Positions 32,522-56,564 of a stretch of 64,000 bases of DNA are shown here, piece by piece. Made by a program: the position numbers and the translations under genes. The stretch's first letter is position 1. Each line of letters opens with the position of its first letter. The stretch is from Actinophytocola xanthii (GTDB lineage Bacteria > Actinomycetota > Actinomycetes > Mycobacteriales > Pseudonocardiaceae): positions 62,001 through 126,000 of the forward strand of contig NZ_MSIE01000034.1 of assembly GCF_001921205.1 (NCBI RefSeq), read 5' to 3'. The notes beneath the pieces are model-generated. The model was not told the DNA's origin, did no database searches, and worked only from the letters and a program-made list of their open reading frames with translations.

Positions 32522-32655
32522 GCGATCCACCACCGCCACCACGATCGGGTTACCCGCACCCGTCCAGGGGGTGTTCCTCGGGCACTCAGTCACGTTCGGC
32601 GCGCCGCACACGCTCCAACCCTGCGTGTGACCTCCGGCGCGTAGGGAAGGTGACG

Positions 32656-34056: not shown

Positions 34057-34217
34057 GGCACGTCCGCACAGTCCCGGTCGATGGGCTTGGTGATCCAGGT
34101 CGTCGCCGGCAAGGCGGAGGGCAGGCCTCGTACCGGGTCGTACTCGGCCTGTCCCGACAACGCCGCCAGCGGCGAACTGGGCGCGAAGACCGCGACCGAG
34201 GGCTGTGCCGACGTGCC
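34057..34217. repeat. MITE-like 161-bp repeat, full copy A
   Basis: Begins GGCACGTCCGCACAG and ends with CTGTGCCGACGTGCC, a 15-bp terminal inverted repeat with one mismatch that extends imperfectly inward for about ten more bases. Copy B at 55175-55335 is the same length and differs at five positions. It starts immediately after the TAG stop of the preceding gene. About three bases past its right end a GGGCGCGTC segment looks like the first bases of another degenerate copy. An open frame (MGLVIQVVAGKAEG...) crosses it but has no known homologue. Confidence 0.85.
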
Positions 34218-34276
34218 ACAGGGCGCGTCTGGTGGATCTCCGGCCGCGCGGTCCGCGCCCGGATGGCCCCCGGCGG

Positions 34277-35368
34277 CTAGGCGCGCTTGTAGAACGGGAG
34301 CGCCACGACCTGGACGGGGAAGGTCCGGCCGCGCAGGTCGACCGCGAGCGGCGTTCCCGGCTCGGACAGCGCGGGCGGGACGTAGGCCATGGCGATCGGG
34401 TGGCCCAGTGTCGGGGACAGGGCGCCGCTGGTGACCGTGCCGATCGGCGCGCCTCCGTCCAGGACGGGGTAGCCGTGGCGGGGCGCGCGGCGGCCCTCGC
34501 CCACCAGCCCGACCCGGACGTGCGCCGCCGGCGCCTTGCGGCGCTCCTCCAGAGCGGCGCGGCCGACGAAGTCCGCCGGCTTGTCGAACTTGACGATCCG
34601 CCCGAGCCCGGCGTCGAACGGGCTCATCTCCACCGACAGCTCGTTGCCGTACAGCGGCATCCCCGCCTCCAGCCGCAGGGTGTCCCGGCTGGCGAGCCCT
34701 GCCGGCAGCAGGCCGTCGTCGGCGCCGGCCTCGGTCAGGGTCTGCCAGACGTCGGCCGCGTGCGCCGCCTCGGCGAAGACCTCGAAGCCGTCCTCGCCGG
34801 TGTAGCCGGTCCGCGCGAGCAGCACGTCGTGCCCGCCCACCCTGGTGGGGACGCTGCCGTAGTAGGAGAGGCCGGACAGGTCGGCGTCACAGACGCGGCC
34901 GATGATGGCCGCCGAGCGCGGGCCCTGGCAGGCCACCAGGGCGCAGTCGCGGGAGCGGTCGACGACCTCGACGGTGAAGCCCTCGGCCCGGGTGGTCAGC
35001 TCCCCCGCCACGAGCGCGGCGTTGGAGGCGTTGGCCACCACCATGAAGTGGTCCTCGCCGAGCCGGTACACGACCAGGTCGTCGAGCACTCCCCCGTCCG
35101 CGTCACAGATCATCGTGTACCGCGCGCGGCCCACCTTGAGCCCGGACAGGTTCCCCACCAGCGCGTAGTCCAGCGCCCGGCCCGCCTCCGGCCCGGTCAG
35201 CTCGATCTCACCCATGTGCGACAGGTCGAACAGCCCGGCTGCCTCCCGCACCGCCCGGTGCTCGGCCAGCTCGCTGCCGTAGCGCAGCGGCATCGACCAC
35301 CCGGCGAAGTCGGTGAACGAGGCCCCGAGCGCGGTGTGCACGTCGTGCAGGGGGGAGAGTGTGCTCAT
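34277..35368 (-). CDS. gcvT: Aminomethyltransferase, glycine cleavage T protein
   Basis: 363 residues from ATG 35368. GcvT signatures include SFTDFAGWSMPLRYGSELAEHRAVREAAGLFDLSHMGEI, ALVACQGPRSA, ARTGYTGEDGFEVF, GLASRDTLRLEAGMPLYGNEL and FVGRAAL. It transfers the methylene group from the H-protein to tetrahydrofolate. The gene stands alone here; gcvP and gcvH are not in the window. Its start codon overlaps the start of the divergent membrane protein at 35367. Confidence 0.94.
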   Translation of the reverse strand: MSTLSPLHDVHTALGASFTDFAGWSMPLRYGSELAEHRAVREAAGLFDLSHMGEIELTGPEAGRALDYALVGNLSGLKVGRARYTMICDADGGVLDDLVVYRLGEDHFMVVANASNAALVAGELTTRAEGFTVEVVDRSRDCALVACQGPRSAAIIGRVCDADLSGLSYYGSVPTRVGGHDVLLARTGYTGEDGFEVFAEAAHAADVWQTLTEAGADDGLLPAGLASRDTLRLEAGMPLYGNELSVEMSPFDAGLGRIVKFDKPADFVGRAALEERRKAPAAHVRVGLVGEGRRAPRHGYPVLDGGAPIGTVTSGALSPTLGHPIAMAYVPPALSEPGTPLAVDLRGRTFPVQVVALPFYKRA

Positions 35369-35933
35369 GTCCCCGATCCTGCCTGGCCCGGCGCCCACCG
35401 GGAACAACGGGGGTATCGCCCGGCTCGGGCCGCCGCCGTGGGCGTTGGCCGCCGGGGTCGGCTACGCGGCCCTCGGCGCGACCTTCCCCAGCCACGGCGT
35501 CCCCGCGCTGGTGGCCGTCTTGGTACCCGGCGTGGCGGCTCTCGCCGCGGTAGCCCTCAACCGCCGCCCACGCACCATCGAACGACTGGCCGTCGAAGAC
35601 TCTGCCCCCAGTGAACAACCCCCACCCGTTCCCGGGGGCGTCCCGCCTTGCCAGCGTATCGACGTTCGGGGGTTGGCGGGGGGTTCGGGGAAATCTGTGG
35701 ACAACTCGGCGGTGCGAACGGCGGGTGGGGGTCGGGTGCGGTTCGGGCGGCGGCACCGGGCGTGGTTGGTGTGGGCGCTCGCGTTCACGGTGTGGGAGGT
35801 GGCGTCGCTGGTGCTCGGGGAGCTGTCGTTCAGCCTGCTGCTGGACCCGGTGCTGGAGGTCTACCCGCTGCGGGTCGGCGGGTGGGTGCTGTGGCTGGCC
35901 GGGCTGTGGCTGTTGGTGCGGAGGCAGCAGTGA
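35367..35933 (+). CDS. Membrane protein paired with a DUF6186 protein
   Basis: 188 residues from ATG 35367, whose first bases overlap the gcvT start on the other strand. Four hydrophobic segments are visible: two near residues 25-70 and two in the C-terminal block (AWLVWALAFTVWEVASLVLG; VGGWVLWLAGLWLLVRR). A hydrophilic Pro/Gly-rich linker of about 50 residues lies between the pairs. Function unknown. Its stop overlaps the GTG of the next gene. Confidence 0.7.
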   Translation: MSPILPGPAPTGNNGGIARLGPPPWALAAGVGYAALGATFPSHGVPALVAVLVPGVAALAAVALNRRPRTIERLAVEDSAPSEQPPPVPGGVPPCQRIDVRGLAGGSGKSVDNSAVRTAGGGRVRFGRRHRAWLVWALAFTVWEVASLVLGELSFSLLLDPVLEVYPLRVGGWVLWLAGLWLLVRRQQ

Positions 35934-36127
35934 TCTCGGTGGTGATGGGCGTGGGGTTCGTCGTGCTGGCGCTGGTCGGGCTGGCGATCGAGCTGGTCGC
36001 GCGGCGGGCTGTGCCACCCCGCCCCACGGTCGGCGAGCTGGTCGACATCCTCGTCGCGACGCGAACCGGGCGGCTGGTCGTGGTCGCGCTGTGGGTGTGG
36101 GTGGGGTGGCACTTCCTGGCGCGGTGA
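35930..36127 (+). CDS. DUF6186-like small membrane protein
   Basis: 65 residues from GTG 35930 (GTGA overlap with the previous stop). One N-terminal membrane helix (VMGVGFVVLALVGLAIELVARR), a short PTVGELVDILVATRTGRL segment and a second helix ending GWHFLAR. The GRL...W.WVGWHF.AR ending is typical of the DUF6186 family of actinobacteria. No function is known. Confidence 0.75.
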   Translation: MISVVMGVGFVVLALVGLAIELVARRAVPPRPTVGELVDILVATRTGRLVVVALWVWVGWHFLAR

Positions 36128-36130
36128 GGG

Positions 36131-36982
36131 TCAGCGGAACAAAATCATCCGGGCGTCCAGCGCGATACCGCGGAGCTCGTCGACGTTCAGCGGCGGCTCC
36201 GGGAAACGCGGCCGGTTGCCGTCAGAGGCGCGGTTGAACGCGGTCAGGTGGATGGTGGTCCCCTCGGCTTTGGCGACCACCACCGAGTGTTGGCGGACGC
36301 CGTCGATGTACTCCTCGCTGTGGGCGAAAACCTCCTCGCCTCCCGGCACCTCAAACACCCGGCAGAACGTCTGCGTCCGGTCGTCGGGTACCCCTCCGCA
36401 CTCCATACGAGACGCCGGTTCGACAGAGACGGAGATCGAGACGCTGCCGAACCTGCCGTCTCGCAAGATGTCGGCGTGCGCGGCGTAGTAGAAGTAGGAG
36501 ACCTCGCACCAGTTGAAGGTCGGTGCCTCCCTGGCGGGATCGTAGTTCCCGAAGAACTCCAGCGGCTCGTAGCGGGCCCCGTACCGGTCCACCGAGGCAG
36601 CCGAGGGGACGAGGGTGGCGCCGTCGGGAAGCTGCTGCTGCACCAGGGGCCTCACCAGCATGGTCAACCGGGCCCTCACGTCCTGGTGCGGCTCGCTGCC
36701 ACCCAGGGACATCTCGAAGGAGTCGCAGCGGCGCGGCCGGTCGGCCGGTGCCGACGCGGTGGGCGAGGCCGCCACCTGGAGCTCCGAGCCTCCCCGCTCA
36801 CGCTGGGGGAAGGCGCCGGCCCCGGCGACCAGCAGCACCACGGCCACGCCCACCCCCACGACGGGGTTCACCACGGCGCGCACGCGCGCCGCCCGCCGGC
36901 CCCGGGCCATCGCCGCGTCCACGTCCACGGTCGACGGGGGGACCTCACCGATCGCTTCGTCGAACATGCCGCTGTCCATCAT
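36131..36982 (-). CDS. Membrane protein downstream of a SigE-family sigma factor
   Basis: 283 residues from ATG 36982 with GGAGGGGAG close upstream. A cytoplasmic N-terminus of about 45 residues, one membrane helix (NPVVGVGVAVVLLVAGAGAF), then a large extracytoplasmic domain with conserved cysteines (RRCDSFEMS; FNWCEVSYFYY; MECGG; TFCRVFE). The layout is that of a single-pass anti-sigma-like or sensory partner, but no zinc-binding anti-sigma domain is seen. It starts 10 bases after the sigma gene and is surely co-transcribed. Confidence 0.7.
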   Translation of the reverse strand: MMDSGMFDEAIGEVPPSTVDVDAAMARGRRAARVRAVVNPVVGVGVAVVLLVAGAGAFPQRERGGSELQVAASPTASAPADRPRRCDSFEMSLGGSEPHQDVRARLTMLVRPLVQQQLPDGATLVPSAASVDRYGARYEPLEFFGNYDPAREAPTFNWCEVSYFYYAAHADILRDGRFGSVSISVSVEPASRMECGGVPDDRTQTFCRVFEVPGGEEVFAHSEEYIDGVRQHSVVVAKAEGTTIHLTAFNRASDGNRPRFPEPPLNVDELRGIALDARMILFR

Positions 36983-36992
36983 CGCTCCCCTC

Positions 36993-37484
36993 CTAGTCCG
37001 TCGCCGCGAGGGCTCGTGCGCGCAGGCCGTCGAGGCCACGCGCGGTCTGGCTCTTCACCGTCCCGGTGCTGCACCCGAGGATCTCCGCGGTCTCCTCGAC
37101 CGAGAGGTCGCAGTAGATGCGCAGCACGACCGCGGCCCGGCGCCTCGGCGGCATGCCCTCCAGCAGGTCCAGCAGCCCGGACCGCTCGACCACTCCGTGC
37201 TCGACCGATGACACCACCTCCGGCAGCACCTCGGTCGGCTCCTCGCGTCGCCACGGCCGCCGGCGCTCGTCCAGCCAGACCCGTAACAGGATCCGCCGGA
37301 CGTACCCGTCGATCCGGGGGTCGTCCCGAAGCCGCGGAAAGTGCCGGTAGAGCTTGGTGATGCTGATCGACACGAGGTCGTCGGCGGTATGCCAGTCCTG
37401 GCAGAGCAGATACGCGAGTCGCCGCATCGACTCCATGCGCGCGCTCACGTACTCGCGGAACGCCGCTTCGTCCGACCGCTTCAC
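36993..37484 (-). CDS. SigE-family (streptomycete type) ECF sigma factor
   Basis: 163 residues. Region 2 (AFREYVSARMESMRRLAYLLCQDWHTADDLVSISITKLYRHF) and region 4 (MPPRRRAAVVLRIYCDLSVEETAEILGCSTGTVKSQTARGLDGLR) match the SigE_fam_strep group of short ECF factors. The membrane protein at 36131 is its likely partner or regulator. Confidence 0.9.
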   Translation of the reverse strand: MKRSDEAAFREYVSARMESMRRLAYLLCQDWHTADDLVSISITKLYRHFPRLRDDPRIDGYVRRILLRVWLDERRRPWRREEPTEVLPEVVSSVEHGVVERSGLLDLLEGMPPRRRAAVVLRIYCDLSVEETAEILGCSTGTVKSQTARGLDGLRARALAATD

Positions 37485-37543
37485 CCCAGCCTCCCCGTGG
37501 TGGTCCCCATCACCTCTACGGAACTGACACGAAGCGGGGTTGC

Positions 37544-38281
37544 TCAGTCCAGAGAAAAACCGTACGGAAGTTCCAGCCGGTGGGCGGCGAGCAGGTCGGT
37601 GTCGGCGAGCAGGTCGCGGGTGGGCCCGTCCGCCACGACCACACCGCCGTCGATCAGGACGCTGCGTGGGCAGAGCTGCAGAGCGTACGGCAGGTCGTGG
37701 GTGACCATGAGCGTGGTGCGGCCCAGCGACAGCAGGACCTCGGCCAGCTCACGCCTCGCCACCGGCTCCAGGTTCGACGACGGCTCGTCCAGGACGAGGA
37801 TCTCCGGGTCGCAGGCGAGCACCGTCGCCAGCGCGACCCGCCGGCGCTGGCCGCCGGACAGGTGCAGGGGCGAGCGGTCGACGTGCTCGGTCATCCCCAC
37901 CGCGTCCAGCGCCTGCCGTACACGTACCCGCAGCGCCTCGCCGGTCAGCCCGAAGTTCGCCGGCCCGAACGCCACGTCCTCGCCGACGGTCGGCATGAAC
38001 AGCTGGTCGTCCGGGTCCTGGAAGACGATGCCGACGCGGCGGCGGATCTCCCGCAGGGTGGACCTCGACACCGGGAGTCCGGCGACCTCGATACGACCGC
38101 TCCCGCCGGAGAGCACGCCGTTCAGGTGCAGCACCAGCGTGGTCTTGCCCGCGCCGTTCGGGCCGAGCACGGCCACCCGCTCCCCCGGCTCGACCCGCAG
38201 GTCCACCCCGTACAACGCCTGGTGCCCGTCGGGATAGGCGTAGGCCAGCCGCTCGACGAGCAGCGCCGGCGGCCCGGTCAC
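37544..38281 (-). CDS. cbiO: Energy-coupling factor transporter ATPase
   Basis: 245 residues. Walker A is LGPNGAGKTTL, the Q-loop region is FQDPDDQLF, the signature is LSGGQRRRVALA, and Walker B is ILVLDEPSSNL followed by the H-loop VTHD. FQDPDDQLFMPTVGEDVAFGPAN is characteristic of CbiO. It is last in the cbiMNQO operon and starts inside the cbiQ stop (4-base overlap). Confidence 0.93.
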   Translation of the reverse strand: MTGPPALLVERLAYAYPDGHQALYGVDLRVEPGERVAVLGPNGAGKTTLVLHLNGVLSGGSGRIEVAGLPVSRSTLREIRRRVGIVFQDPDDQLFMPTVGEDVAFGPANFGLTGEALRVRVRQALDAVGMTEHVDRSPLHLSGGQRRRVALATVLACDPEILVLDEPSSNLEPVARRELAEVLLSLGRTTLMVTHDLPYALQLCPRSVLIDGGVVVADGPTRDLLADTDLLAAHRLELPYGFSLD

Positions 38282-39108
38282 CGAAGCAGTACCGCGGCCG
38301 CCAGCACCGTCGCGGCGAGGACGACCGGCGTCAGACCCGCGAGCCAGGCACCGGCTCCGGCGGTGGTGCCGCCGTCGGGCATCCGACCGGTCCAGCCGCG
38401 GGACACCATCGCGAGGTGCACCCGCTCACCGCGCTCGTAGCTGCGCACGAACAACGCCCCGATCCCGCGGGCCGTCGCTCCGACCTGCCAGAGGAACCGG
38501 GGGTCGTGACCGCGGGAGATCCGCGCCGTGCGCATCCGGCGGGCCTCGGCGGCGATCACCTCGAGGTAGCGGAGCATGAGCGTGGCGATGGTGGTCAGCA
38601 CGGCCGGGGCGTGCAGCCGCTGCAGGCCGACCACCAGCTCGCGGGGCGTGGTCGTCGCGGCCAGGGTCAGCGAGACCAGCACCCCGAGCGTGCCCTTGGC
38701 CAGGATGTTCCATCCGGCCAGCGCCCCCTGCTCGGACAGGCTCATGCCGAGGAACCGGAACCGCTCCCCGCCGCCGAGGAACGGCATCACCAGCGCGACC
38801 ACCACGAAAGGGACCTCGATTACGGCGCGCCGGGCGACGTGGCCGACCGGGACGGCCGCGGCGGCCCAGACCGCGGCGAGCAGCACCAGGTACGCCCCGA
38901 ACGCCCAGAACTGGGTGCGAGGGGTCGCCACGACGCAGACCACCGCGAGCAGCGCGCACACGATCTTGACCTGCGCGGGCAGCCGGTGCACCGCGGAGCT
39001 CCCCGGCCGGTACAGCACGAGCGTCCCGCCGGCCGGCGCGGGACGCGGGCCCGGTGGTCTCCGGAGGTTTCGGCCCAGCGCGGGGAGGCTAGTCACCGGG
39101 CTGGTCAC
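38278..39108 (-). CDS. cbiQ: ECF transporter transmembrane T component
   Basis: 276 residues. Several hydrophobic helices and the cytoplasmic coupling helices with ARRMRTARISRGHDPRF and ERGERVHLAMVSRGWTG, the two Ala-Arg-Gly motifs that dock onto CbiO. An unusually long, Pro-rich N-terminus (about 45 residues) precedes the first helix, and its first codons overlap the end of cbiN by 20 bases. Confidence 0.9.
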   Translation of the reverse strand: MTSPVTSLPALGRNLRRPPGPRPAPAGGTLVLYRPGSSAVHRLPAQVKIVCALLAVVCVVATPRTQFWAFGAYLVLLAAVWAAAAVPVGHVARRAVIEVPFVVVALVMPFLGGGERFRFLGMSLSEQGALAGWNILAKGTLGVLVSLTLAATTTPRELVVGLQRLHAPAVLTTIATLMLRYLEVIAAEARRMRTARISRGHDPRFLWQVGATARGIGALFVRSYERGERVHLAMVSRGWTGRMPDGGTTAGAGAWLAGLTPVVLAATVLAAAVLLR

Positions 39109-39454
39109 CTCGTCTGCGCAGCAGCCAGAACAGCCCGCCGGCCACCAGCAGCGTGGCCAGCACCCCGATCACCCCGGCCACCCCGGTGAACCGGTCGTCG
39201 CCGCCGACGGAGTAGTCGGCGAGCGGGCTGTCGGCCAGGTCGTGCTCGCCGGCGTTCCTGGCGATGCAGTCGCCGACCAGCTCCTCGCCGCCGTCGGTCT
39301 CGACCACCTCACACCCCTCGAGGGTCGCGGTGTCCAGGCCGTCGGGATCGGAGTCGGCGAAGTACGACAGCGCTCCCGCGATCACCAGGGCGACCAGCGC
39401 GAACCCGGTGAAGAACAGCCCAAGCCGCCGGTTGCGGCGGACCTCGGTGCTCAT
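39089..39454 (-). CDS. cbiN: CbiN-like PDGLE-domain protein
   Basis: 121 residues. Two membrane helices flank an extracytoplasmic loop beginning SDPDGLDTATLEG, the PDGLE signature of CbiN-related proteins, with two cysteines (GCEVV; GDCIARN) that could pair. CbiN assists CbiM in metal capture. Its ATG overlaps the 5' side of the cbiM stop region (4-base coupling). Confidence 0.87.
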   Translation of the reverse strand: MSTEVRRNRRLGLFFTGFALVALVIAGALSYFADSDPDGLDTATLEGCEVVETDGGEELVGDCIARNAGEHDLADSPLADYSVGGDDRFTGVAGVIGVLATLLVAGGLFWLLRRRGDQPGD

Positions 39455-39455
39455 G

Positions 39456-40151
39456 TCAGGCCTCCTTGGGTGCGGCCGGCACGGTGCGCAGCTCCAGGGG
39501 CCGCGCGGTCCCGCGCAGCAGGTGGACGAGGTCGGGCCGCACGCTCGCCACGGCCCCGACGGTCAGCGCCGTGATGAGGCCCTCCCCGATCCCGATCAGG
39601 CAGTGCAGCCCGAGCACCGAGCCGGCGACGGCACCGAGGGAGAACGCGGGGTCGCCGCCGAGCGCGAACTGCAGGATGAACCCGCCGGAGGCGACGACCG
39701 TGTTGACGAACGCCGCGACGAAGCACACCGCCAGCAGGCCTGGCCTGTTCCGCCGCGCCAGCCGACGCAGCAGCACGGCGACGCCGTAGCCGGCGCAGAC
39801 ACCGATCAGGGCCATGTTGGTGATGTTGGCGCCGAGGGCGGTCAGCCCGCCGTCGGCGAACACCAGCGCCTGCACCACGAGCACGATGCCCACACACAGG
39901 GCGCCGACCCACGGGCCGACCAGGATCGCGGCCAGCGCCCCACCGAGCAGGTGACCGCTGACCCCGGGCAGGATCGGGAAGTTCAACATCTGGGTGGCGA
40001 ACACGAACGCGGCGACCAGACCGGCCATCGGCGCGGTCCGGTCGTCCAGGTCCCGACGCGCCCCGGCCATCGCGGCGGCCATGCCGGCCACGGCCACGGC
40101 GCCGAACACCGCCGAGACGGGTGCGTTGATCAACCCGTCGCTCATGTGCAT
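39456..40151 (-). CDS. cbiM: ECF transporter substrate-binding membrane protein for Co2+/Ni2+
   Basis: 231 residues from ATG 40151. The mature start MHMSDGLINAPV supplies the N-terminal amine and His2 metal ligand that define CbiM/NikM (canonical MHIPDGFL). Six to seven membrane helices follow, with the GALCVGIVLVVQALVFADGG and GVSGHLLGGALAA motifs. The set M-N-Q-O forms a complete cobalt (or nickel) importer. The promoter region is only about 100 bases and holds no cobalamin riboswitch; TTGCAA and TTGCGC half sites there might bind a Fur-family regulator (weak). Confidence 0.92.
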   Translation of the reverse strand: MHMSDGLINAPVSAVFGAVAVAGMAAAMAGARRDLDDRTAPMAGLVAAFVFATQMLNFPILPGVSGHLLGGALAAILVGPWVGALCVGIVLVVQALVFADGGLTALGANITNMALIGVCAGYGVAVLLRRLARRNRPGLLAVCFVAAFVNTVVASGGFILQFALGGDPAFSLGAVAGSVLGLHCLIGIGEGLITALTVGAVASVRPDLVHLLRGTARPLELRTVPAAPKEA

Positions 40152-40252
40152 TGCTACTGAGGCGGACACCCTCCCACCCTAGTTACCAGCCGGGCGCAAC
40201 CACCAGAGTCTTGCAACAACGAACGCGCGGCGAACGGCCTAACATCGCGCGC

Positions 40253-41059
40253 GTGACGACCTTCGTCGAGGGCCGGCCGGCCGACCCGGTCTCCACCCTG
40301 CTCACCAGGAGCTACCTGGGCTTCACGCAGCCGGCGAGCAGCGGCACGAGCTGGCTCGCGACGCCGGTCCCGGTGGTCACGGTGATCATCAACACCGGCG
40401 CTCCCTTCGGCGGGCTGCCCAGGGCGTTCGTCGCCGGGCTGGCCGACCGGCCGGACCTGGTCGAGCAGCACGGCGAGATCGAGTGCGTGGACCTCAAGCT
40501 GACCCCGCTGGGGGCCTACCGGCTGCTCGGGGTGCCGATGACGGAGCTGACCGGGCAGACCGTGGACCTCACCGCGGTACTCGGCCGGGTGGCCGGCGAG
40601 CTCACTGACCGGCTCGCCGAGGCCCCGACCTGGCCGGCCCGGTTCGCGCTGCTCGACGAGTTCCTGCTGGCCCGCCTGTCCCGTGGGCCCCACCCGGCGC
40701 CCGAGGTGGCACTGGCCTGGCGGCGGCTCGTGGCGGGCGGCGGCACCGTGCGCGTCGGGGAGCTGGCCGAGGAGGTCGGCTGGAGCCGGCGGCACCTGAC
40801 GGCGCGGTTCCACCAGCAGGTCGGCCTGCCGCCGAAGACCGCCGCGCGGATCATCCGCTTCGAGGCGCTGCTGCGGCGGCTGGCCGCGGGCGGCGAGCCG
40901 GCGCGGACCGCCGTCGAGTGCGGGTACTACGACCAGTCCCACATGGACCGGGACTTCCGTGAGTTCGCCGCCACCACGCCGGGCGCGTTCCTCGCCCGGC
41001 TGCCCGCACCGGCGGCCGAGGTCACATCCGTCCAATACACCTGGGTGCCTGCGACCTAG
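40253..41059 (+). CDS. AraC-family transcriptional regulator
   Basis: 268 residues from GTG 40253. The C-terminal pair of helix-turn-helix units is intact: VRVGELAEEVGWSRRHLTARFHQQVGLPPKTAARIIRFEALLRRL and ARTAVECGYYDQSHMDRDFREFAATTPGAFLA. The N-terminal 150 residues form a DUF6597-like/cupin-type sensing domain (LRSYLGFTQP style). It is divergent from cbiM but next to a VOC gene 10 bases downstream, which is its more likely partner. Confidence 0.9.
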   Translation: MTTFVEGRPADPVSTLLTRSYLGFTQPASSGTSWLATPVPVVTVIINTGAPFGGLPRAFVAGLADRPDLVEQHGEIECVDLKLTPLGAYRLLGVPMTELTGQTVDLTAVLGRVAGELTDRLAEAPTWPARFALLDEFLLARLSRGPHPAPEVALAWRRLVAGGGTVRVGELAEEVGWSRRHLTARFHQQVGLPPKTAARIIRFEALLRRLAAGGEPARTAVECGYYDQSHMDRDFREFAATTPGAFLARLPAPAAEVTSVQYTWVPAT

Positions 41060-41069
41060 CCTCCCCGGC

Positions 41070-41468
41070 ATGACGATCTACGCGGCACTGAACTACCAGG
41101 ACCCGGACGAGGCCGTGCGCTTTCTGTGCGCGGCGTTCGGGTTCGACGAGCACTCGGTCAGCCGGGCCGAGGACGGCGGCTTCCAGCACGGCGAGCTGCG
41201 GCTCGGGGAGAGCCTGGTGCTGATCGCCGGCCCGCGCGAGCCCGGCTGGCTCGGCAGCACCGGTGCCGAGCCGCTGGCCTCGCCGATCAGCCTCTACGCC
41301 GTCGTGGACGACCCCGCGGCGCACTGCGAGCGCGCCAGGGCGGCGGGGGCGCGGGTCGTGCGTGAGCCCGAGCACACCGACTACGGGTCCCACGAGTACT
41401 CGGCCCGCGACCCCGAGGGCAACCTCTGGTCGTTCGGCACCTACCGGCCGGTCACACGAACGCGTTGA
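41070..41468 (+). CDS. VOC (glyoxalase-like) family protein
   Basis: 132 residues. IYAALNYQDPDEAVRFLCAAFGFDEHSVSRAEDGGFQHGELRLGESLVLI and the ending HEYSARDPEGNLWSFGTYRP are typical of glyoxalase-like proteins of the PhnB/bleomycin-resistance type. It is co-directional with the AraC gene and likely in an operon. Its 3' end overlaps the 3' end of the convergent acyl-CoA dehydrogenase gene by 17 bases. Confidence 0.9.
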   Translation: MTIYAALNYQDPDEAVRFLCAAFGFDEHSVSRAEDGGFQHGELRLGESLVLIAGPREPGWLGSTGAEPLASPISLYAVVDDPAAHCERARAAGARVVREPEHTDYGSHEYSARDPEGNLWSFGTYRPVTRTR

Positions 41469-42603: not shown

Positions 42604-42617
42604 GCTGGCGACGATAC

Positions 42618-47867: not shown

Positions 47868-48577
47868 GACGCCAGCCCCATTTCTGGAATGAGGAACAGT
47901 GAAACCGAATCGAACGCAGCGGAAATTACGGCACCACTACTCGGGACATACTGCGTGGGCCGTCTTTATTCGATGGCAGTACTCGCTCCCTCCTCGAAGG
48001 CACGGCAATGCCGAACCCGGTTCTCGACGCACCGCGAAGACGAGAACTGAGCAACGATCGTACATCAATCACCAGACCTGGGAAGTCGTCCGAGAAATGG
48101 CCGTTGACCTGCGGAACGACACCGGAAACGAGCGAAGGAGAGTCGGTCCGGGAAGGACGGGAGTGAGTTGATCACCCGAGTTCTACTGTGCGTCGATGTC
48201 TTTCCCTCGAATGACTCGACCGAGTGGACGAAGGGGGGCGCGTCAGGATGAACCGGTCACTGCGGAACCATGCCGCCGAACCGGTGCGACCCCCGTGCGC
48301 GCCCGAAGCCACCTGGGCGGGGTGCACGACGACCGGCGGAGCCGAACCGGCCGACGGCGAGTTGCGGAACGAAGGCCGCCCAACCCGGGTGCCGCGACGG
48401 GCCGTCACTCCTTCATCGCCCCATCGTGTGATTCCGACCGCGACGAGACGGCTTCGCCGTAGGATGTCGTCACCGCCCAGGTTTGACGGCTGTTCCCCTT
48501 CTCGACGTATAGTCCGTGAAGGTTTCCACCAGGGGCCCAAACTCGGCGGCTAAACCCTGTGTTCTCCGGAGGAACAT
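47868..48577. other. 710-base intergenic region without a convincing gene
   Basis: The region between the divergent cvn and symporter operons is much less GC-rich than its surroundings. Small frames occur, the longest on the plus strand at 48224-48553, but none has family features, a ribosome binding site or codon bias. It holds the promoters of both operons, and the plus-side one is listed separately. Confidence 0.6.
48483..48513 (+). promoter_or_regulatory. Possible SigA-type promoter of the acetate symporter operon
   Basis: TTGACG (48483-48488) and TATAGT (48508-48513) resemble -35 and -10 boxes; the 19-base spacer is long. The start codon is 65 bases further on, with GGAGGAA just before it. 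Confidence 0.4.
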
Positions 48578-49000
48578 ATGACTCAGGTGGTTCACCACCG
48601 GATCACGTCCCGGTCACGCGCACCCGGCGGCGACTTCGGTGGAATCATCGGGGAGACCGACCGGATCTCGACCGGGATACCGGCGGCACAAAGGGAGCCG
48701 GACTACGTGGCCATCCGGGAAAGCCCCGAGTTCGTCGCCCTCAGGCGCTCATTCCGGTGGTGCGTTTTTCCACTGGCCGCTTTGTTCTTCCTGTGGTATC
48801 TGACCTATGTCCTGCTCGCCGCCTTCGCCCACGGGCTGATGAGCCACCGGCTGGTCGGCTCGGTCACCGTGGGCCTCGTGCTGGGGCTGCTGCAGTTCGC
48901 CTCCACGATCGCGATCACCGCCTGCTACGTGCTCTACGCACGACGGCGGCTCGACCCCCAGGCCGAGGCGATCCGCGACGGCGTGGAGGCCGGGCGGTGA
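48578..49000 (+). CDS. DUF485 membrane protein of the acetate symporter operon
   Basis: 140 residues. A hydrophilic N-terminus of about 55 residues, then FVALRRSFRWCVFPLAALFFLWYLTYVLLAAFAHGLMSHRLVG and a second helix (TVGLVLGLLQFASTIAITACYVLYARRRLDP), the DUF485 signature. DUF485 proteins (YjcH-like) are regularly encoded upstream of ActP-type acetate symporters. Its stop overlaps the GTG of the symporter gene. Confidence 0.92.
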   Translation: MTQVVHHRITSRSRAPGGDFGGIIGETDRISTGIPAAQREPDYVAIRESPEFVALRRSFRWCVFPLAALFFLWYLTYVLLAAFAHGLMSHRLVGSVTVGLVLGLLQFASTIAITACYVLYARRRLDPQAEAIRDGVEAGR

Positions 49001-50577
49001 ACGAGGGCGCCGGGTCGACCGGGAGCCCGGTCCTCAACATGCTCGTGTTCGCCGGTTTCGTCGCGATCACCCTGTACGTGGTGTACCGGGTGAGCCACCA
49101 CAACAAGTCCACATCGGACTACTACGCCGCGGGCAGCGCCTTCTCCGGTGCGCAGAACGGGATCGCGATCACCGGCGACTACCTGTCCGCCGCGTCGTTC
49201 CTCGGGATCGCTGGCGCGATCGCGGTGCACGGCTACGACGGGTTCCTCTACTCGATCGGTTTCCTCGTCGCCTGGCTGGTGGCCCTGCTGCTGGTGGCCG
49301 AGCTCGTGCGCAACACCGGCCGGTTCACGATGGGCGACGTGTTGGCCTACCGGATGCGCCAGCGCCCGGTCCGCGCCGCCGCGGCCACCTCGACACTGGT
49401 CATCTCGTTCTTCTACATGCTGGCGCAGATGGCCGGCGCCGGCGGACTCGTGGCGCTGCTGCTGGACGTGCCGGGCAGGGGCGGGCAGGCGCTGGTGATC
49501 TGCGTCGTCGGGCTGGTGATGATCTGCTACGTCCTGGTCGGCGGCATGAAGGGCACGACCTGGGTGCAGATCATCAAGGCCACGATGCTCGTGCTGTGCG
49601 TGGTGCTGATGACCGTGTTCCTGCTCGGCAAGTTCGGCTTCAGTATGTCCGCGCTGCTCGAGGAGGCGGCGGCGAACAACAGCCAGGGCGAGCGGGTGCT
49701 GGAGCCCGGCACGCAGTACGGGACGACGACGAGCCAGCTGAACTTCATCTCGCTGTCGCTGGCCCTGGTCCTCGGCGCCGCCGGCCTGCCGCACGTGCTC
49801 ATGCGGTTCTACACGGTGCCCGACGCCCGCCAGGCGCGCCGGTCGGTGGTCTGGGCGGTCTGCACGATGGCGGTGTTCTACCTGGCCACGCTGGTGATCG
49901 GGTACGGCGCCTCGGCACTGGTGGGCTCGGAGCGGATCCTCGGCTCCACCGGCCGGGAGAACTCGGCCGCGCCGCTGCTCGCGTTCGAGATCGGCGGCAC
50001 CGTGCTCCTCGGGATCGTCTCGGCGGTGGCGTTCGCGACGATCCTCGCCGTGGTCGCCGGGCTGACGCTCACCGCCTCGGCGTCGTTCGCCCACGACGTC
50101 TACGCCACCATCTTCCGCCGGGGTGACGTGGAGCCCGAGGCCGAGGTCCGGGTCGCGCGGCTGACGGCCGTGGTGGTCGGGGTGCTGGCGATCATCGGGG
50201 GCATCCTCGCCAACGGGCAGAACGTGGCGTTCCTGGTGGCACTCGCGTTCGCGTTCGCGGCCTCGGCGAACCTGTCGACACTTCTCTACTCGTTGTTCTG
50301 GCCGCGGTTCAACACGGTGGGCACGCTGTGGGCCATGTACGGCGGGCTCGGGTCCTGCCTGCTGTTGGTGTTGGTGTCGCCGGTGGTGTCCGGAGCTCCC
50401 ACGTCGCTGTTCCCGGGGCTGGACTTCCAGCTCTTCCCGCTGACCAACCCCGGGCTGGTCTCGATCCCGGTCTCGTTCCTCGCCGGGTACCTGGGAACGG
50501 TGCTGAGCGGGGAGCCGGCCGACCCGGTGAAGCAGGCCGAGATGGAGGTCCGGTCGCTGACCGGGCTCGGCCGATGA
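48997..50577 (+). CDS. actP: Cation/acetate symporter
   Basis: 526 residues from GTG 48997. It has the sodium:solute symporter fold with about 13 helices. Family blocks are YYAAGSAFSGAQNGIAITGDYLSAASFLGIAGAI, QIIKATMLVLCVVLMTVFLLGKFGF, LPHVLMRFYTVPDARQARRSVVWA and SASFAHDVYATIF. It takes up acetate and similar short carboxylates with Na+ or H+. It is translationally coupled to the DUF485 protein. Confidence 0.92.
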   Translation: MNEGAGSTGSPVLNMLVFAGFVAITLYVVYRVSHHNKSTSDYYAAGSAFSGAQNGIAITGDYLSAASFLGIAGAIAVHGYDGFLYSIGFLVAWLVALLLVAELVRNTGRFTMGDVLAYRMRQRPVRAAAATSTLVISFFYMLAQMAGAGGLVALLLDVPGRGGQALVICVVGLVMICYVLVGGMKGTTWVQIIKATMLVLCVVLMTVFLLGKFGFSMSALLEEAAANNSQGERVLEPGTQYGTTTSQLNFISLSLALVLGAAGLPHVLMRFYTVPDARQARRSVVWAVCTMAVFYLATLVIGYGASALVGSERILGSTGRENSAAPLLAFEIGGTVLLGIVSAVAFATILAVVAGLTLTASASFAHDVYATIFRRGDVEPEAEVRVARLTAVVVGVLAIIGGILANGQNVAFLVALAFAFAASANLSTLLYSLFWPRFNTVGTLWAMYGGLGSCLLLVLVSPVVSGAPTSLFPGLDFQLFPLTNPGLVSIPVSFLAGYLGTVLSGEPADPVKQAEMEVRSLTGLGR

Positions 50578-50592
50578 CGCCGCGGCGGAAAC

Positions 50593-50639
50593 GGCGAGCT
50601 GGGCGCGAAGACCGCGACCGAGGGCTGTGCGGACGTGCC
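50593..50639. repeat. MITE-like repeat, right-end fragment D
   Basis: 47 bases match the right end of the 161-bp element (two differences from copy A), ending with the terminal repeat CTGTGCGGACGTGCC. The outer edge is directly next to the TAG stop of the minus-strand DUF3817 gene, the same junction as copy A. Confidence 0.8.
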
Positions 50640-51011
50640 CTACAGCCGGACGCCCTCGCGGACCTTGCGCGAGACCGACCGCTCGGCGACGAACGAGACG
50701 AACGGGACCACGCCGGAGAGCATCACCAGCACGGTGCCCTTCATCGACCACCTGGCCTTGATCGCGAGGTCCACCGTGGCCACCAGGTACACGATGTAGA
50801 GGAAGCCGTGGACCGGCCCGACGAGCGCGGTGTACCGGTCCTCGTCGAAGCCGTACTCCATGACCATCGAGAAGCACAGTGCGAGCAGGCCGACGCCGAC
50901 GATGTAGGCCATCACCCGGTAGCGGGCGAGGGCGCCGTGTACCCCGGCCGCGCCGGTCGCCTGGACCGGGTTCTCCTCGTCGCTGGTCACCGGCGTCTCG
51001 GGGGGTGTCAT
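50640..51011 (-). CDS. DUF3817 membrane protein
   Basis: 123 residues. RYRVMAYIVGVGLLALCFSMVMEYGFDEDRYTALVGPVHGFLYIVYLVATVDLAIKARW and a last helix (VLVMLSGVVPFVSFVAERSV) form the DUF3817 integral membrane domain, related to the YdzA/MscS-neighbour group. An acidic leader of about 25 residues precedes it. Its start overlaps the stop of the upstream gene (ATGA). Confidence 0.88.
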   Translation of the reverse strand: MTPPETPVTSDEENPVQATGAAGVHGALARYRVMAYIVGVGLLALCFSMVMEYGFDEDRYTALVGPVHGFLYIVYLVATVDLAIKARWSMKGTVLVMLSGVVPFVSFVAERSVSRKVREGVRL

Positions 51012-51385
51012 CGGGACTCCTGCTGATCCATCTCGTTGAGGCGGGCCAGGTAGCGGTTGTACTCGGCCAGCTCGGGGTCGTCCTCATCCTTGTCGGTCCG
51101 GGCGGCCGGCCGCGGGGCGGGCTCCCACGACTCCCCCGCCTCGGCCGCGGGCGAGGCTGGTGCCGGCGGCTCGGGGTCGTGGCGGAGCTTGCGCAGGCGC
51201 CAGAACATGAACGCGGGGAACAGGCCGAACAGCGGCCACTGCAGTACGTACCCCAGGTTCTGCCAGCTGCCGCTGGAGGACTCGAAGCGCTGCCACTGCC
51301 ACCAGGCCAGCCCGACGCACCCGATCAGGGACACCACGCACACCACGACGATGCCCAGCCGACGCGCCGTCAGTCCGCCCTTCAC
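51008..51385 (-). CDS. Small two-helix membrane protein, unknown
   Basis: 125 residues. Two helices (RLGIVVVCVVSLIGCVGLAWWQW; NLGYVLQWPLFGLFPAFMFW) and a charged Pro-rich tail ending in the helical LAEYNRYLARLNEMDQQ. The WQW...RFESSSGSWQNLGYVLQWPLFGLF.AF.FW.R pattern is conserved in actinobacterial proteins encoded before DUF3817 genes, from general recall only. Function unknown. Confidence 0.75.
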   Translation of the reverse strand: MKGGLTARRLGIVVVCVVSLIGCVGLAWWQWQRFESSSGSWQNLGYVLQWPLFGLFPAFMFWRLRKLRHDPEPPAPASPAAEAGESWEPAPRPAARTDKDEDDPELAEYNRYLARLNEMDQQESR

Positions 51386-51409
51386 GTTCCCGACGCTAAC
51401 ACTCCGGGG

Positions 51410-52216
51410 CTACCCCGCCGTCCGCGCGTAGCCGTCGGCCAGGCCGAAGACCTTCTGGCCGTAGGGCAGCGAGTTGTTGTACGAGAACACCGCGGCCCAC
51501 CAGTCGGCTGGCACGGCCAGGTCGCGACCGCCAGCACACAGGTAGCGACCGGCGGCGAGGGCGGCGTCGTCGATCTGCTGCGGATCGCCCCGGCCGTCGA
51601 GGTTGGCGTCGGCGGCCCAGCGGTGCCAGGTGGAGGGGATGAACTGCATCGGCCCGACCGCCCGGTCCACCCGGTCGTCGCCGTCGAACCGGCCCGCGTC
51701 GGTGTCGGAGATCGCGCGCACCCCGGCCGAACCGTCGAGCGGCACCCCGATGATGGGTCGGGAGGGTCGACCGTCGTCGTTCAGCGTGGCGCCGCCGAAG
51801 CGGCCGTGGTCGGACTCGATGCGGCCGATGCCGGCAAGGGTGGCCCAGGAGAGGTGGCAGCCGGGGTCCTCGGTGCGCAGGACGAGCTCGGCGTTGCCAT
51901 AGGCCATGAGGGCTCGGGCGGGGATGCCGGTCGGCGCGGCCAGGCCGGTCGCCCACGAGCGGAGCGGGTCGCCGCCGGACGTGCGCGGGGAGTCCAGGTG
52001 GGCGGCCGCGCTCGCCGGGGTGACCTCGCCGGGGTCCACGTCCGCCGCGGGGATGGTCGCGGCGAGGTTCTCCGTGCTGGGCGGGCCGGTCTCGGGCGAG
52101 GTCGCGGCCCGCAGCAACAACACACCACCCGTCCCCACGGCCAGGATCAGGAGCACGATGCCGAGCCGAAGGAGTACACCGAACCGGGGACCCCCGTCGG
52201 TGTGGGCTGTGATCAC
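51410..52216 (-). CDS. Lytic murein transglycosylase
   Basis: 268 residues. A single N-terminal anchor or signal helix (GVLLRLGIVLLILAVGTGGVLLL) is followed by an SLT-type domain: IPARALMAYGNAELVL, the catalytic Glu in WATLAGIGRIESDHGRFGG, and VGPMQFIPSTWHRWAADANLDGRGDPQQIDDAALAAGRYLC with the end FSYNNSLPYGQKVFGLADGYA. It cleaves peptidoglycan glycan strands at the outer face of the membrane. Confidence 0.9.
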   Translation of the reverse strand: MITAHTDGGPRFGVLLRLGIVLLILAVGTGGVLLLRAATSPETGPPSTENLAATIPAADVDPGEVTPASAAAHLDSPRTSGGDPLRSWATGLAAPTGIPARALMAYGNAELVLRTEDPGCHLSWATLAGIGRIESDHGRFGGATLNDDGRPSRPIIGVPLDGSAGVRAISDTDAGRFDGDDRVDRAVGPMQFIPSTWHRWAADANLDGRGDPQQIDDAALAAGRYLCAGGRDLAVPADWWAAVFSYNNSLPYGQKVFGLADGYARTAG

Positions 52217-52253
52217 ACGTGGTCAACGACGCTCGCGCCGCCGCGTTACGACA

Positions 52254-52745
52254 TCAGGCGGAGCGGCGCTCGTTCTGTCGCTGCAGGCGGGCCACGCACC
52301 AGGCGGGGGCGCTGCCCTTGCGGAGGTGCTGGAGCACGGTCAGCGGACCGAGCCGGCGGCTGAGGTCGGAGGGGGCGAGACCGGCGGCGCGGTAGTCCAG
52401 CGCACGCTGGTCGAGCGGGCTGATGCCGGCGTCCCACCACTCCTTGGCCTCGGCGAGGCCGCCGACCATCTGCCACCAGCCGGCCGCCGCGGAGAGCAGT
52501 TCGGCGGGCACTTCCGGCAGTCGCTCACGCATGGCGGCGAAGAAACGGGGGTCGGTGGCCTCGACGGCCGCCCAGGAGCCGCTGCCGCCCCTGGCGCGCT
52601 GGCCGGGGATCCCGGTTCGCGGCTGCACCGGCACGTCCGCGAGCCACTCCGACGCGATCCGGTTGATCTCGTCCGACTCGGTGGCCTTGGAGTGATCTTC
52701 TGTCCACTGCCGTACCAGGTCATCCACACCGGAATCGTCGAGCAT
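52254..52745 (-). CDS. Hypothetical soluble protein
   Basis: 163 residues. It is acidic and helical at the N-terminus (DDSGVDDLVRQWTEDHSKATESDEINRIASEWLADVP), then Trp-rich with a basic end (WCVARLQRQNERRSA). No family is recognised. It may be co-transcribed with the downstream transglycosylase, 37 bases away. The 259 bases upstream to 53004 show no gene. Confidence 0.6.
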   Translation of the reverse strand: MLDDSGVDDLVRQWTEDHSKATESDEINRIASEWLADVPVQPRTGIPGQRARGGSGSWAAVEATDPRFFAAMRERLPEVPAELLSAAAGWWQMVGGLAEAKEWWDAGISPLDQRALDYRAAGLAPSDLSRRLGPLTVLQHLRKGSAPAWCVARLQRQNERRSA

Positions 52746-53004
52746 CCTGCCTCCTCCGAGAGAACTGCGGACCAGCCCGCGAAAGTCGATGCGGGAACCG
52801 TAAAGGCCGGCACCGACAGTCCGCCAGACCTGATCTCGAGGAAAGCTGTCAAACAGGGGTTGGAGAGGCAGAATCCACCCGTACGGTCCAATGTGGCGCT
52901 AGATGCGGGCAACCATTGTCACGGTCGGTGACCCGTTGACCAGGTGTTCGGACACGGATGAGCCCGCCACCACGGAGACCGGGTGACGAGCGTGACCTCC
53001 TCGA

Positions 53005-53166
53005 TCAGGCGAAGAGGTTCCTCATGAACGTGATGATCGCTTCGGCGCCGTCCTGCAGCCAGCCGAGGATGCCCTGCACCGCCTCCGCCGCCTGCGTGGG
53101 CTGCGTGATCACGTAGAACAGCACCAGTGCCACGCCGATCAGGATCATGGCCTTCTTCGCGTTCAC
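53005..53166 (-). CDS. 53-residue single-pass membrane protein
   Basis: Starts at GTG 53166 with GGAGTGAGAC upstream. An N-terminal membrane helix (AMILIGVALVLFYVITQP) is followed by an amphipathic segment (AEAVQGILGWLQDGAEAIITFMRNLF). This type of small protein is common and conserved in actinobacteria; function unknown. A longer frame from 53229 lacks the expected start context. Confidence 0.7.
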   Translation of the reverse strand: MNAKKAMILIGVALVLFYVITQPTQAAEAVQGILGWLQDGAEAIITFMRNLFA

Positions 53167-53314
53167 CGTCTCACTCCGTCCGCTGCTACCCCTCCGGCGT
53201 CCAGCGCCGGCTCCGCGCGCCTGTGTCACACCGATGGCCGTAACAGCCTACGGTGCGTGCACTACCCCACACAGACCTTACGTCGATCGACTTCGACTCG
53301 CGAGGTGACACGCC

Positions 53315-54079
53315 ATGATCGAAACCGTCCTCGTCGAACGGTCCGGCCCGGTGACAACGGTGCTGATCAACCGTCCTGACCAGCGCAACTGCGTCGACGG
53401 TCCGACCGCCGCGGCGCTGGCCGACGCGTTCCGCGCGTTCGAGGAGGACTCCTCCGCACGGGTGGCGGTGCTCGCCGGGGTGGGTCCCTCGTTCTGCGCG
53501 GGCGCGGATCTGAAGGCGATGGGCACCCAACGGAGTAACCGATTGGCTACCGATGGTGATGGACCGATGGGTCCCACCCGCCTCTCGCTCGGCAAGCCGG
53601 TGATCGCCGCGGTGGCGGGGCACGCGGTGGCCGGCGGGCTCGAGCTGGCGCTGTGGTGCGACCTGCGGGTGGTCGACGAGACCGCGGTGTTCGGGGTGTT
53701 CTCCCGGCGGTGGGGCGTGCCGCTGATCGACGGCGGGACCGTGCGGCTGCCGCGGCTGGTCGGCCAGAGCCGGGCGATGGACATGGTGCTGACGGGTCGG
53801 CGGGTGGACGCGAGGGAGGCACTGGTGATGGGGCTGGCGAACCGGGTTGTCCCGGCGGGGCGGGCACGCGCGGAGGCGGAGGAGCTGGCGGGGCGGTTGG
53901 CCGCGTTCCCGCAGGGGTGCCTGCGGAGGGACCGCGCGTCGGTGCTCGCGCAGTGGGGTGAGTCGGAGGGGGCGGCGCTGGCCGCGGAGTTCGCGGGCGG
54001 GGTGGAGGTGCTGGGCGAAGGGCTCGCCGGGGCGGCGCGGTTCGCCCAGGGCGCGGGGCGGGGCGGGCGGTTCGACTGA
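53315..54079 (+). CDS. Enoyl-CoA hydratase/isomerase (crotonase) family
   Basis: 254 residues. VTTVLINRPDQRNCVDGPTAAALADAF, the oxyanion-hole loop GVGPSFCAGADLKAM and the second glycine-rich loop KPVIAAVAGHAVAGGLELALWCDLRV are canonical. The two glutamates of true hydratases are replaced: the first catalytic site reads ETAVFGVFSRRWGVP, so a different crotonase reaction is possible. No pathway genes are adjacent. Confidence 0.88.
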   Translation: MIETVLVERSGPVTTVLINRPDQRNCVDGPTAAALADAFRAFEEDSSARVAVLAGVGPSFCAGADLKAMGTQRSNRLATDGDGPMGPTRLSLGKPVIAAVAGHAVAGGLELALWCDLRVVDETAVFGVFSRRWGVPLIDGGTVRLPRLVGQSRAMDMVLTGRRVDAREALVMGLANRVVPAGRARAEAEELAGRLAAFPQGCLRRDRASVLAQWGESEGAALAAEFAGGVEVLGEGLAGAARFAQGAGRGGRFD

Positions 54080-54125
54080 GCTGGCTGGGCGGGCGGGGTG
54101 ACTGCCGGCGCTATCGTCGGCCGGC

Positions 54126-54743
54126 ATGACGATCCTCGACGAGCTCGACCGGCGGCTGGCACCCATCGGCTGGGCGCGGGCGGAACCCTGGGACGACGAC
54201 GAGTACGTCACCTACGCCCGGCGGCCGAACGACGAGATCTCCTTCGAGCTGGGTCTGGACGTCGAACCGCGGGAGTGGGGTCTGCGGCTGAACCCGGTGG
54301 TCGCCGTTCGCCACGTCGAGGTCGCCCGGCTCTCCGGTCTGTTCCTCGGCCTGCCGGCGGGGGCGTGCATGACCGCCGCGACGCTGGCGGATCTCGTCGC
54401 GCGGGCGGCTCCCTCCCGGTGGGACATGTCCTTCGCCGACGGCGTGCGCGGGGAGGAGGCCGCCGGCCAGCAGGTCGTGGCGGACCTGGTGGCCCAGGGG
54501 GAGCCGTTCCTGGCGAGCATGCCGACCCTTGCCGACATGATCGCCCGGATCAGTACGGACAGCCGACGGTCGCAGGTGGACGACGGCAACCTGGCCATCG
54601 CGTACATGCTGTCCGGGGACGACGACGGCGCCAGGCAGGCGTTGGGCGCGATGGAGGCGAAAGCCGTCGAGCGGCCGTTGCTGGCGCGCGGCCAGTTCGA
54701 CGTGTTCCTCCGCGGCTTCCGCGACTACTTCAACCTGGGCTAG
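54126..54743 (+). CDS. Hypothetical protein
   Basis: 205 residues, no recognised family. The first half is beta-rich (EYVTYARRPNDEISFELGLDVEPREWGLRLNPVVAVRHVEVARL) and the second half helical (TLADMIARISTDSRRSQVDDGNLAIAYMLSGDDDGARQALGAMEAKA). No signal peptide or membrane segment, so probably cytoplasmic. The codon usage and spacing (ATG 47 bases after the crotonase stop) support a real gene. Confidence 0.65.
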   Translation: MTILDELDRRLAPIGWARAEPWDDDEYVTYARRPNDEISFELGLDVEPREWGLRLNPVVAVRHVEVARLSGLFLGLPAGACMTAATLADLVARAAPSRWDMSFADGVRGEEAAGQQVVADLVAQGEPFLASMPTLADMIARISTDSRRSQVDDGNLAIAYMLSGDDDGARQALGAMEAKAVERPLLARGQFDVFLRGFRDYFNLG

Positions 54744-54864
54744 CGGGCTGGTCGCGCGGAGTGGGGAGAGGGGGCGGCCTCCGGCCCCCGGTCACCAGAG
54801 TACCGGGAGGGACCGACAGTTTCGGCGCGGTGAGGAGGCGGTGAAGGTGCGGGGAGAGCTGGGA

Positions 54865-55161
54865 TTAGGGCTTCGGGCAGATGACGTGGCGCACTTCCTC
54901 GTTGGGGATGACGCGCAGGGCCAGGGACTGCTTGGCGCATAACGCCCTCGCGTGCCGGACAGCCTCGACGGCTGCCTGGTCGCAGGCGGTCACGGTGCTC
55001 AGGTCCAGGGTCAGCACCTCCAGCTCGGCACACCCCACCGCCAGGAACTCCGCCACCACCCGGTTGACCTCGCCCACGGTCGTGGCGTCCAGCACCCCGG
55101 TCACGCCGACGCCGGCGCCCTCGTGCACCGACACCGTCACCGTGGAGATCTTCGTGCTCAT
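54865..55161 (-). CDS. STAS-domain anti-sigma antagonist-like protein
   Basis: 98 residues from ATG 55161. The STAS pattern is GVGVTGVLDATTVGEVNRVVAEFLAVG then LTLDLSTVTACDQAAVEAVRHARALC. At the position of the phosphorylated Ser in SpoIIAA-type antagonists (DSS) this protein has Asp61-Gln62, so it cannot be switched by the usual kinase and phosphatase. It may be locked active or serve another role. Repeat copy B lies directly upstream. Confidence 0.78.
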   Translation of the reverse strand: MSTKISTVTVSVHEGAGVGVTGVLDATTVGEVNRVVAEFLAVGCAELEVLTLDLSTVTACDQAAVEAVRHARALCAKQSLALRVIPNEEVRHVICPKP

Positions 55162-55174
55162 GAGGCAGAGACTA

Positions 55175-55335
55175 GGCGCGTCCGCACAGTCCCGGTCGAT
55201 GGGCTTCGTGATCCAGGTCGTCGCTGGCAAGGCGGAGGGCAGGCCTCGTACCGGGTCGTACTCGGCCTGTCCCGACAACGCCGCCAGCGGCGAACTGAGC
55301 GCGAAGACCGCGACCGAGGGCTGTGCGGACGTGCC
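55175..55335. repeat. MITE-like 161-bp repeat, full copy B
   Basis: Same length as copy A and different at five positions. Starts GGCGCGTCCGCACAG and ends CTGTGCGGACGTGCC (14 of 15 in the inverted repeat). Both edges touch CTA/TAG: CTAG before it and CCTAG after it. A truncated copy C follows three bases downstream. Confidence 0.88.
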
Positions 55336-55338
55336 TAG

Positions 55339-55394
55339 GGCGCGTCCGCACAGTCCCGGTCGATGGGCTTCGTGATCCAGGTCGTCGCTGGCAA
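55339..55394. repeat. MITE-like repeat, left-end fragment C
   Basis: The first 56 bases of the element, identical to copy B over that stretch, in direct tandem with copy B after a TAG trinucleotide. It breaks off in the middle of the element, just short of the stop codon of the CaiB-family gene. Confidence 0.8.
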
Positions 55395-56544: not shown

Positions 56545-56564
56545 CGACCTGCCTTCCGCCTCAC

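Follow-up and report, generated by a model that had tools for sequence, protein, structure and literature searches.

Bacterial miniature inverted-repeat transposable elements (MITEs) are commonly regarded as transient remnants of a single insertion sequence (IS), and those of the Correia/NEMIS, RUP, bcr1 and ERIC kind have each been described for one genus or a few relatives. The accounts cited here portray these MITEs as short and geneless, with terminal inverted repeats and a stable hairpin, and as moved by transposases that recognize their ends (PMC3733652; PMC10969869). REP elements are given as 20-40 bp long with a GTAG or CGTC tag at one end (PMC3733652), and the hairpin-forming R0/R2 repeats of Pseudomonas fluorescens were suggested to be MITEs moved by IS transposases, their core being described as variable and as forming the loop (PMC2718517). 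Here we analyze a repeat of about 160 bp in a 64,000-nucleotide stretch of the actinomycete Actinophytocola xanthii (GCF_001921205.1, contig NZ_MSIE01000034.1, positions 62,001 to 126,000; hereafter, the window). We consider it likely that this repeat is a non-autonomous, CTAG-targeting MITE that is moved in trans by IS5-family transposases and that combines a folded core with variable ends.

The repeat is dispersed through the genome, which is available as an 8.34-Mb draft assembly of 204 contigs. When one full-length copy from the window (copy B) was used as the query, 41 places in the genome matched, which rules out chance as the origin of the repeat; 37 of these cover the whole copy, or nearly so, at an identity of at least 92%. 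The count excludes 18 rows in which a copy matches itself reversed at 69-71% identity, because the whole element is an imperfect palindrome. Forty-five full-length copies were gathered, 38 of subfamily 1 (the type found in the window) and 7 of subfamily 2. They measure 158-162 bp (exactly 160 bp in 35), bear terminal inverted repeats of about 15-18 bp and have space for at most 53 codons, which excludes a transposase gene by size. CTAG stands on both sides of 25 copies, on one side of 18 and on neither side of 2, and this tetranucleotide is otherwise rare, with 25 occurrences in the 123,965 remaining flank bases. The end type is identical on both sides in 29 of the 38 subfamily-1 copies: the GC form in 22, the TA form in 6 and the TC form in 1, the other 9 being mixed. 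Moreover, a single CTAG can be common to two neighbors, as it is for copy B and the element adjoining it in the window, for an IS5-family element and a MITE (L111), for two IS ends (L485), and for an IS701-like element and a MITE end (L108); a duplicated target fits this arrangement better than a CTAG carried by the element itself. Judged by sequence, the features of a MITE are present: small size without a transposase gene, terminal inverted repeats, a CTAG target-site duplication and dispersed copies. The original prediction, which had been made from the letters of the window, proposed a mobile element and recommended examining the complete genome and relatives for further copies and their flanking bases; this proposal is borne out by the 45 full copies, 43 of which have at least one CTAG, and by IS5-family elements with matching or near-matching ends.

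The interior, in which the original prediction rightly saw no transposase, holds a conserved structured hairpin that it had overlooked. Almost the whole element is predicted to fold as one hairpin (-120.1 kcal/mol, z -11.8), and 39 cores (38 from BLAST and one beside the IS at L111) conform to a single hairpin fold, in which 22 of the 30 consensus pairs show compensated changes. In an alignment of 68 sequences (A3, which retains the 68 sources out of 70 whose E is below 9e-10), 94.2% of the cells are paired and double changes occur in 27 of the 30 pairs; the double-changed cells number 441, compared with 132 after shuffling and 29-105 in slid structures. Both strands of an asymmetric internal loop, CAAGGC and CAACGC (or CAACAC), are kept in 61 of the 68 sequences, at a spacing of 38 or 40-45 bases, in a class-wide set that was gathered, like alignments A2-A4, with a covariance model that itself scores the loop (R1). 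Six of the seven exceptions are without CAAGGC; this strand is lost in L145, L158, L244 and L246, and in L145 and L158 the stem is fully paired at that place. Rfam yielded no match at the gathering score, and the matches of E-value scans, mainly to eukaryotic microRNA hairpins, all lay below it. These patterns of sequence suggest that the core is probably a functional folded module. Five core-poor derivatives with similar ends have lost most or all of the core (44, 51, 113, 87 and 44 bp at L100, L101, L103, L105 and L343, respectively), and each is single among the matches listed; this would be consistent with the core contributing to amplification, though deletion of a palindrome in place also explains it.

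The core extends well beyond this genome. A copy search matched 24 of 100 genomes of relatives (own genome included), mostly in the interior and in several cases weakly; the ends vary from genome to genome and the length stays near 160 bp. The R1 model located 47 places in the own genome, the last of which is weak and without ends, and it matched 80 of 394 sampled genomes of the class (own genome included) in 26 of 138 genera. Bounds could be set for 119 of 134 elements, of which 107 are 157-163 bp long; the 134 were hand-picked matches, several per genome and one entered twice (L111, L218), and their lengths were searched within limits. In a sample of the phylum, 14 of 296 genomes matched, 6 of them outside the class, where the best scores were 34-42 bits. 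Two of these outside-class loci (L364 and L365) represent elements, 159 and 160 bp long, that are flanked by CTAG on one side and by CTAC or CTAA on the opposite side; of two further ones, L367 is cut by the contig start and L366 has a loop-like motif without CTAG-type ends. A blastn search with an actinomycete copy matched nine Streptomyces plasmid records over part of the core and returned no phage match. No paper on this element family was found in the open-access literature; a description elsewhere is possible.

The original prediction also called for a partner IS elsewhere in the genome, and this expectation holds for subfamily 2, whereas the type found in the window has only near matches, in relatives. 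The window's genome contains a 971-bp IS at L111 with the ends GGCGTGTCTGGTGGATCT and GGCGTGTCTGACGGATCT and with CTAG flanks; each of the seven subfamily-2 copies agrees with its ends at 16 of 18 positions, and the ISs of other genomes reach at most 14. For subfamily 1, the end TAGGGCCCGTCCTCAAAG without MITE sequence behind it was found in 6 of 390 genomes from the family, all outside the window's genus, by a pattern that already fixes most of that end. At L483 and L489, a second, inverted copy of this end closes a 938-bp element with CTAG outside, and the interior of L483 contains two frames of an IS5-family transposase. The three scanned frames, namely the two of L483 and the N-terminal frame at L111, all score above the cut-off for NF033580, whose IS elements have two reading frames with DUF4096 and DDE domains. 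The IS5-like affinity that had been predicted from the CTAG target thus agrees with the partner ISs, which are CTAG-flanked and belong to NF033580 in the IS5 family. The matching ends give good support to the view that subfamily 2 is moved in trans by IS5-family transposases, and near matches support the same for subfamily 1. At L339 (G353), a core at 40-128 lies just outside a 1327-bp, CTAG-flanked IS5-type element (187-1521), which is the second case of an IS and a MITE as neighbors after L111. No core was found inside the IS bounds of 16 IS loci searched with the covariance model R2; the two strong R2 matches at these loci are cores of neighboring MITEs.

Other candidate partners were considered. 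An IS701-type transposase (PF13546) occurs in three genomic places, of which only L108 has clear ends (CTTGAGTTTTAAC), and it has the CTAG target in common with the MITE and nothing more. This element (G000:C184, 40-1633), presumably IS701-like to judge from its Pfam domain, has CTAG on both sides and is inserted at the CTAG of a MITE end, so a second transposase type of this genome uses the same target. A PF13359 profile search of the window's genome gave no match. The DDE_Tnp_1 loci L118 (G000:C57, 1398-2395) and L112 (G000:C119) have CTAG-flanked inverted ends (ATGGTTGATTC; ACGAGTAAC) unlike those of the MITE. In a scan of named genomes, a subfamily-1 end without MITE sequence gave single matches in metagenome-assembled genomes of Planctomycetota, Clostridiales and Oscillospiraceae.

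In the explanation that we favor, a trans-acting IS5-family transposase of the NF033580 type would bind the terminal repeats and insert the element at CTAG, with duplication of these four bases. As this tetranucleotide is scarce in the G+C-rich genome and often coincides with TAG stops, about half of the copies come to stand immediately downstream of genes, a position in which little harm is expected. The stem is held by selection or by correction between the arms, singly or jointly, and the asymmetric loop is retained throughout the class, and apparently in more than one phylum, while the ends differ. Most likely, the folded core helps the element to be mobilized or tolerated, and the lineage may persist as its ends drift or are exchanged to suit the transposases available. 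This persistence through changes of the ends is supported in part, and the sequence patterns point to selection on the fold and the loop, with or without arm-to-arm correction, as what keeps the core. Several observations weigh against this explanation. Compared by eye, the end at L483 and L489 shares 15 of 16 positions with the TCAAAG form of subfamily 1 and only 13 of 16 with the GCACAG form, which is the more common, and no autonomous element with exact window-type ends was found in the 204 contigs of the own draft genome. In most other genomes, the delimitable IS5-family ends differ from those of the local MITEs; in G327, four of six MITE copies match at 15 of 18 positions, but a foreign IS also matches. 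The expectation that a MITE would resemble the IS of its own genome more closely than foreign ones was not borne out in most genomes. The kind of element represented by L145 is multi-copy in G058 although its loop is lost, which indicates that the internal loop is not strictly needed. Finally, the core is oriented in sense to the preceding gene in 11 cases and in antisense in 13, without strand bias.

Hairpins bearing the loop were also found in viral contigs, where 5 of 51 motif matches lie inside hairpins with 52-58 flank pairs, as opposed to 0 of 42 matches to loop-mutated controls. The exact-loop pattern occurs in 10 viral contigs, and in three of these (L351, L357 and L360) it lies in hairpins with 52-53 flank pairs, in surrounding stretches of 43-56% G+C; a co-varied form of the loop (GCC/CGGC) does so in 2 of 13 matches (L524 and L528), and a third form (GGC/CGCC) in 0 of 28 viral matches. 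The two loop-mutated patterns gave 0 of 9 and 0 of 33, the best control having 21 flank pairs. A relaxed viral pattern added no match with at least 50 flank pairs among 86 matches folded, and one additional pattern scan of viral contigs gave no further hairpin match. Since these patterns demand the loop, only the hairpin, the length and the ends count as independent evidence. L360 can be delimited as an element of 158 bp flanked on either side by CTAG, and L351 and L357 at 152 bp with TATA on both sides, so that their target or transposase may differ from the CTAG type; the R1 scores are 39 bits for L351, 33 for L357 and 30 for L360. The elements at L351 (9897-9948) and L357 (650-830) lie in Bacillota-like contigs and have ends like TATAGTCAACACACTTGAAA. 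When the L357, L360 and L528 elements were used in blastn, one unannotated fecal phage record was found, with a match that does not contain the exact loop. The L357 baseplate protein resembles proteins of gut phages, one of them a Faecalibacterium phage (50.8%), the terminase of L528 resembles a Pseudomonas phage protein (82.8%), and the L524 Kup protein resembles one on a Pseudomonas aeruginosa plasmid record (78.4%). The five contigs apparently belong to Bacillota and Pseudomonadota, an assignment based on protein resemblance. The presence of the core in distant bacteria despite differing ends hints that the core itself does something. We tentatively suggest, while thinking it somewhat more probable that the facts are otherwise, that a single very old hairpin of ~90 nt with a fixed asymmetric loop resides in transposons of about 150-165 bp in several phyla, which swap or re-evolve their ends, and that this core would be recognized as a DNA hairpin or as RNA by a conserved factor needed for movement or persistence.

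The rival that survives best is an ordinary MITE that arose by deletion from an IS5-family element and has an inert interior; its cores would be alike through descent and horizontal spread alone, and its arms would be matched by slippage or hairpin-templated repair. Stable hairpins are indeed common in MITEs in the account cited (PMC10969869), the two ends of a copy change in step as correction between arms would have it, and lineages without the loop persist. However, such correction would be expected to remove an asymmetric loop, whereas here no part is better kept than the loop, and the stems are replaced; the loop also recurs in long hairpins in contigs of other groups, and none of the IS loci examined has a core within its bounds. 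We regard this rival as rather unlikely.

The position of the copies behind genes bears on a second rival. A stop codon, counted when it closed an open reading frame (ORF) of at least 80 codons with high third-position G+C, directly precedes 19 of the 38 first-collected copies and 21 of all 45. The frequent insertion at stop codons that the original prediction described is thus real, and it reflects no preference apart from the target, because CTAG itself sits at stops: 12 of 21 other CTAG sites near the 38 copies are in-frame stops on at least one strand. A structured RNA that sets messenger RNA 3' ends or stability, as a terminator or RNase III site, and that is conserved for this benefit, with mobility serving just for its spread, would accord with the very stable predicted fold, the covariation of the stem and these positions. 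Yet the even orientation of the cores, with a loop that is strand-specific, and a placement that follows from CTAG targeting speak otherwise, as does the lack of an Rfam match at the gathering score, and we consider such an RNA improbable; a function in the 3' untranslated region was rejected for want of strand bias. The least probable rival, and a very doubtful one, holds that a DNA-binding host factor recognizes the two loop strands as ordinary double-stranded sites, the hairpin being incidental; the near-invariance of both motifs would suit this, but their variable spacing and the pairwise covariation of the stems between and outside them speak against it.

In the window, two full copies and two fragments are present as first described (Table 1), and the full copies A and B, of 161 nt each, are 97% identical. 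Copy A begins directly behind the TAG stop of a 468-amino-acid ORF, as had been stated; this TAG is part of a CTAG, and the ACAG to its right is probably a decayed CTAG. The CTAG reported on each side of copy B is likewise there, overlapping its end bases. The fragment said to abut a TAG stop on the opposite strand was misidentified: the rightmost one stops 7 bases before the CTA at 55402, and it is the other fragment that adjoins such a stop, which belongs to ORF 50640-51011. Copy B and its truncated neighbor lie between the start of ORF 54865-55161, which is small and by eye STAS-like (anti-sigma antagonist), and the 3' end of ORF 55402-57819, which is by eye acyl-CoA transferase-like.

Table 1. 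Coordinates of the element copies, cores and target sites in the window
Feature	Position	Strand	Remark
Left target CTAG of copy A	34053-34056		TAG is the stop of ORF 32650-34056
Copy A, full-length element, 161 bp	34057-34217	+	Right flank ACAG
Hairpin core of copy A	34092-34182	+	Match of covariance model R1
Truncated right end of an element	50593-50639	+	Adjoins minus-strand TAG stop (CTA) at 50640-50642
Left CTAG of copy B	55172-55175		Overlaps first base assigned to copy B
Copy B, full-length element	55175-55335	+	Strict extent between the two CTAGs is 55176-55334
Hairpin core of copy B	55210-55300	+	R1 match; internal-loop strands CAAGGC and CAACGC
CTAG common to copy B and the neighboring truncated copy	55335-55338		Overlaps last base of copy B
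Truncated left end of another copy	55339-55394	+	Ends 7 bases before the CTA at 55402

The interior of this element seems to outlive its ends, as the stem is rewritten with compensation and the loop stays fixed while the ends vary from one genome to the next. Should the core be functional, lineages of non-autonomous elements can be long-lived and possess a structural component that is theirs, and what reads the hairpin becomes a directly testable question. The family also offers an annotation for unexplained intergenic repeats of actinomycetes; the nine Streptomyces plasmid records, for example, contain part of the core.

Among known repeats, the REP/REPIN sequences with their RAYT transposases are likewise palindromic, intergenic and non-autonomous; the present element, at about 160 bp with CTAG on both flanks and a DDE-type partner, falls outside the definition of REP. 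The R0/R2 repeats resemble it as hairpin-forming repeats that are proposed to be IS-moved MITEs, and they are set apart from its conserved core by description rather than by sequence comparison. With the IS5 family NF033580 (transpos_IS5_3), the element has in common the CTAG target and matching or near-matching ends, but it is without a transposase, and its core is missing from the ISs themselves. All features listed above for the Correia/NEMIS, RUP, bcr1 and ERIC kind are found in it too, presumably including the mode of movement; unlike these, it is G+C-rich, targets CTAG and has a core found throughout a class, and apparently in more than one phylum, while the ends differ. What distinguishes this element, over the whole class and probably beyond it, is the combination of variable ends with a conserved folded core whose asymmetric loop is fixed.

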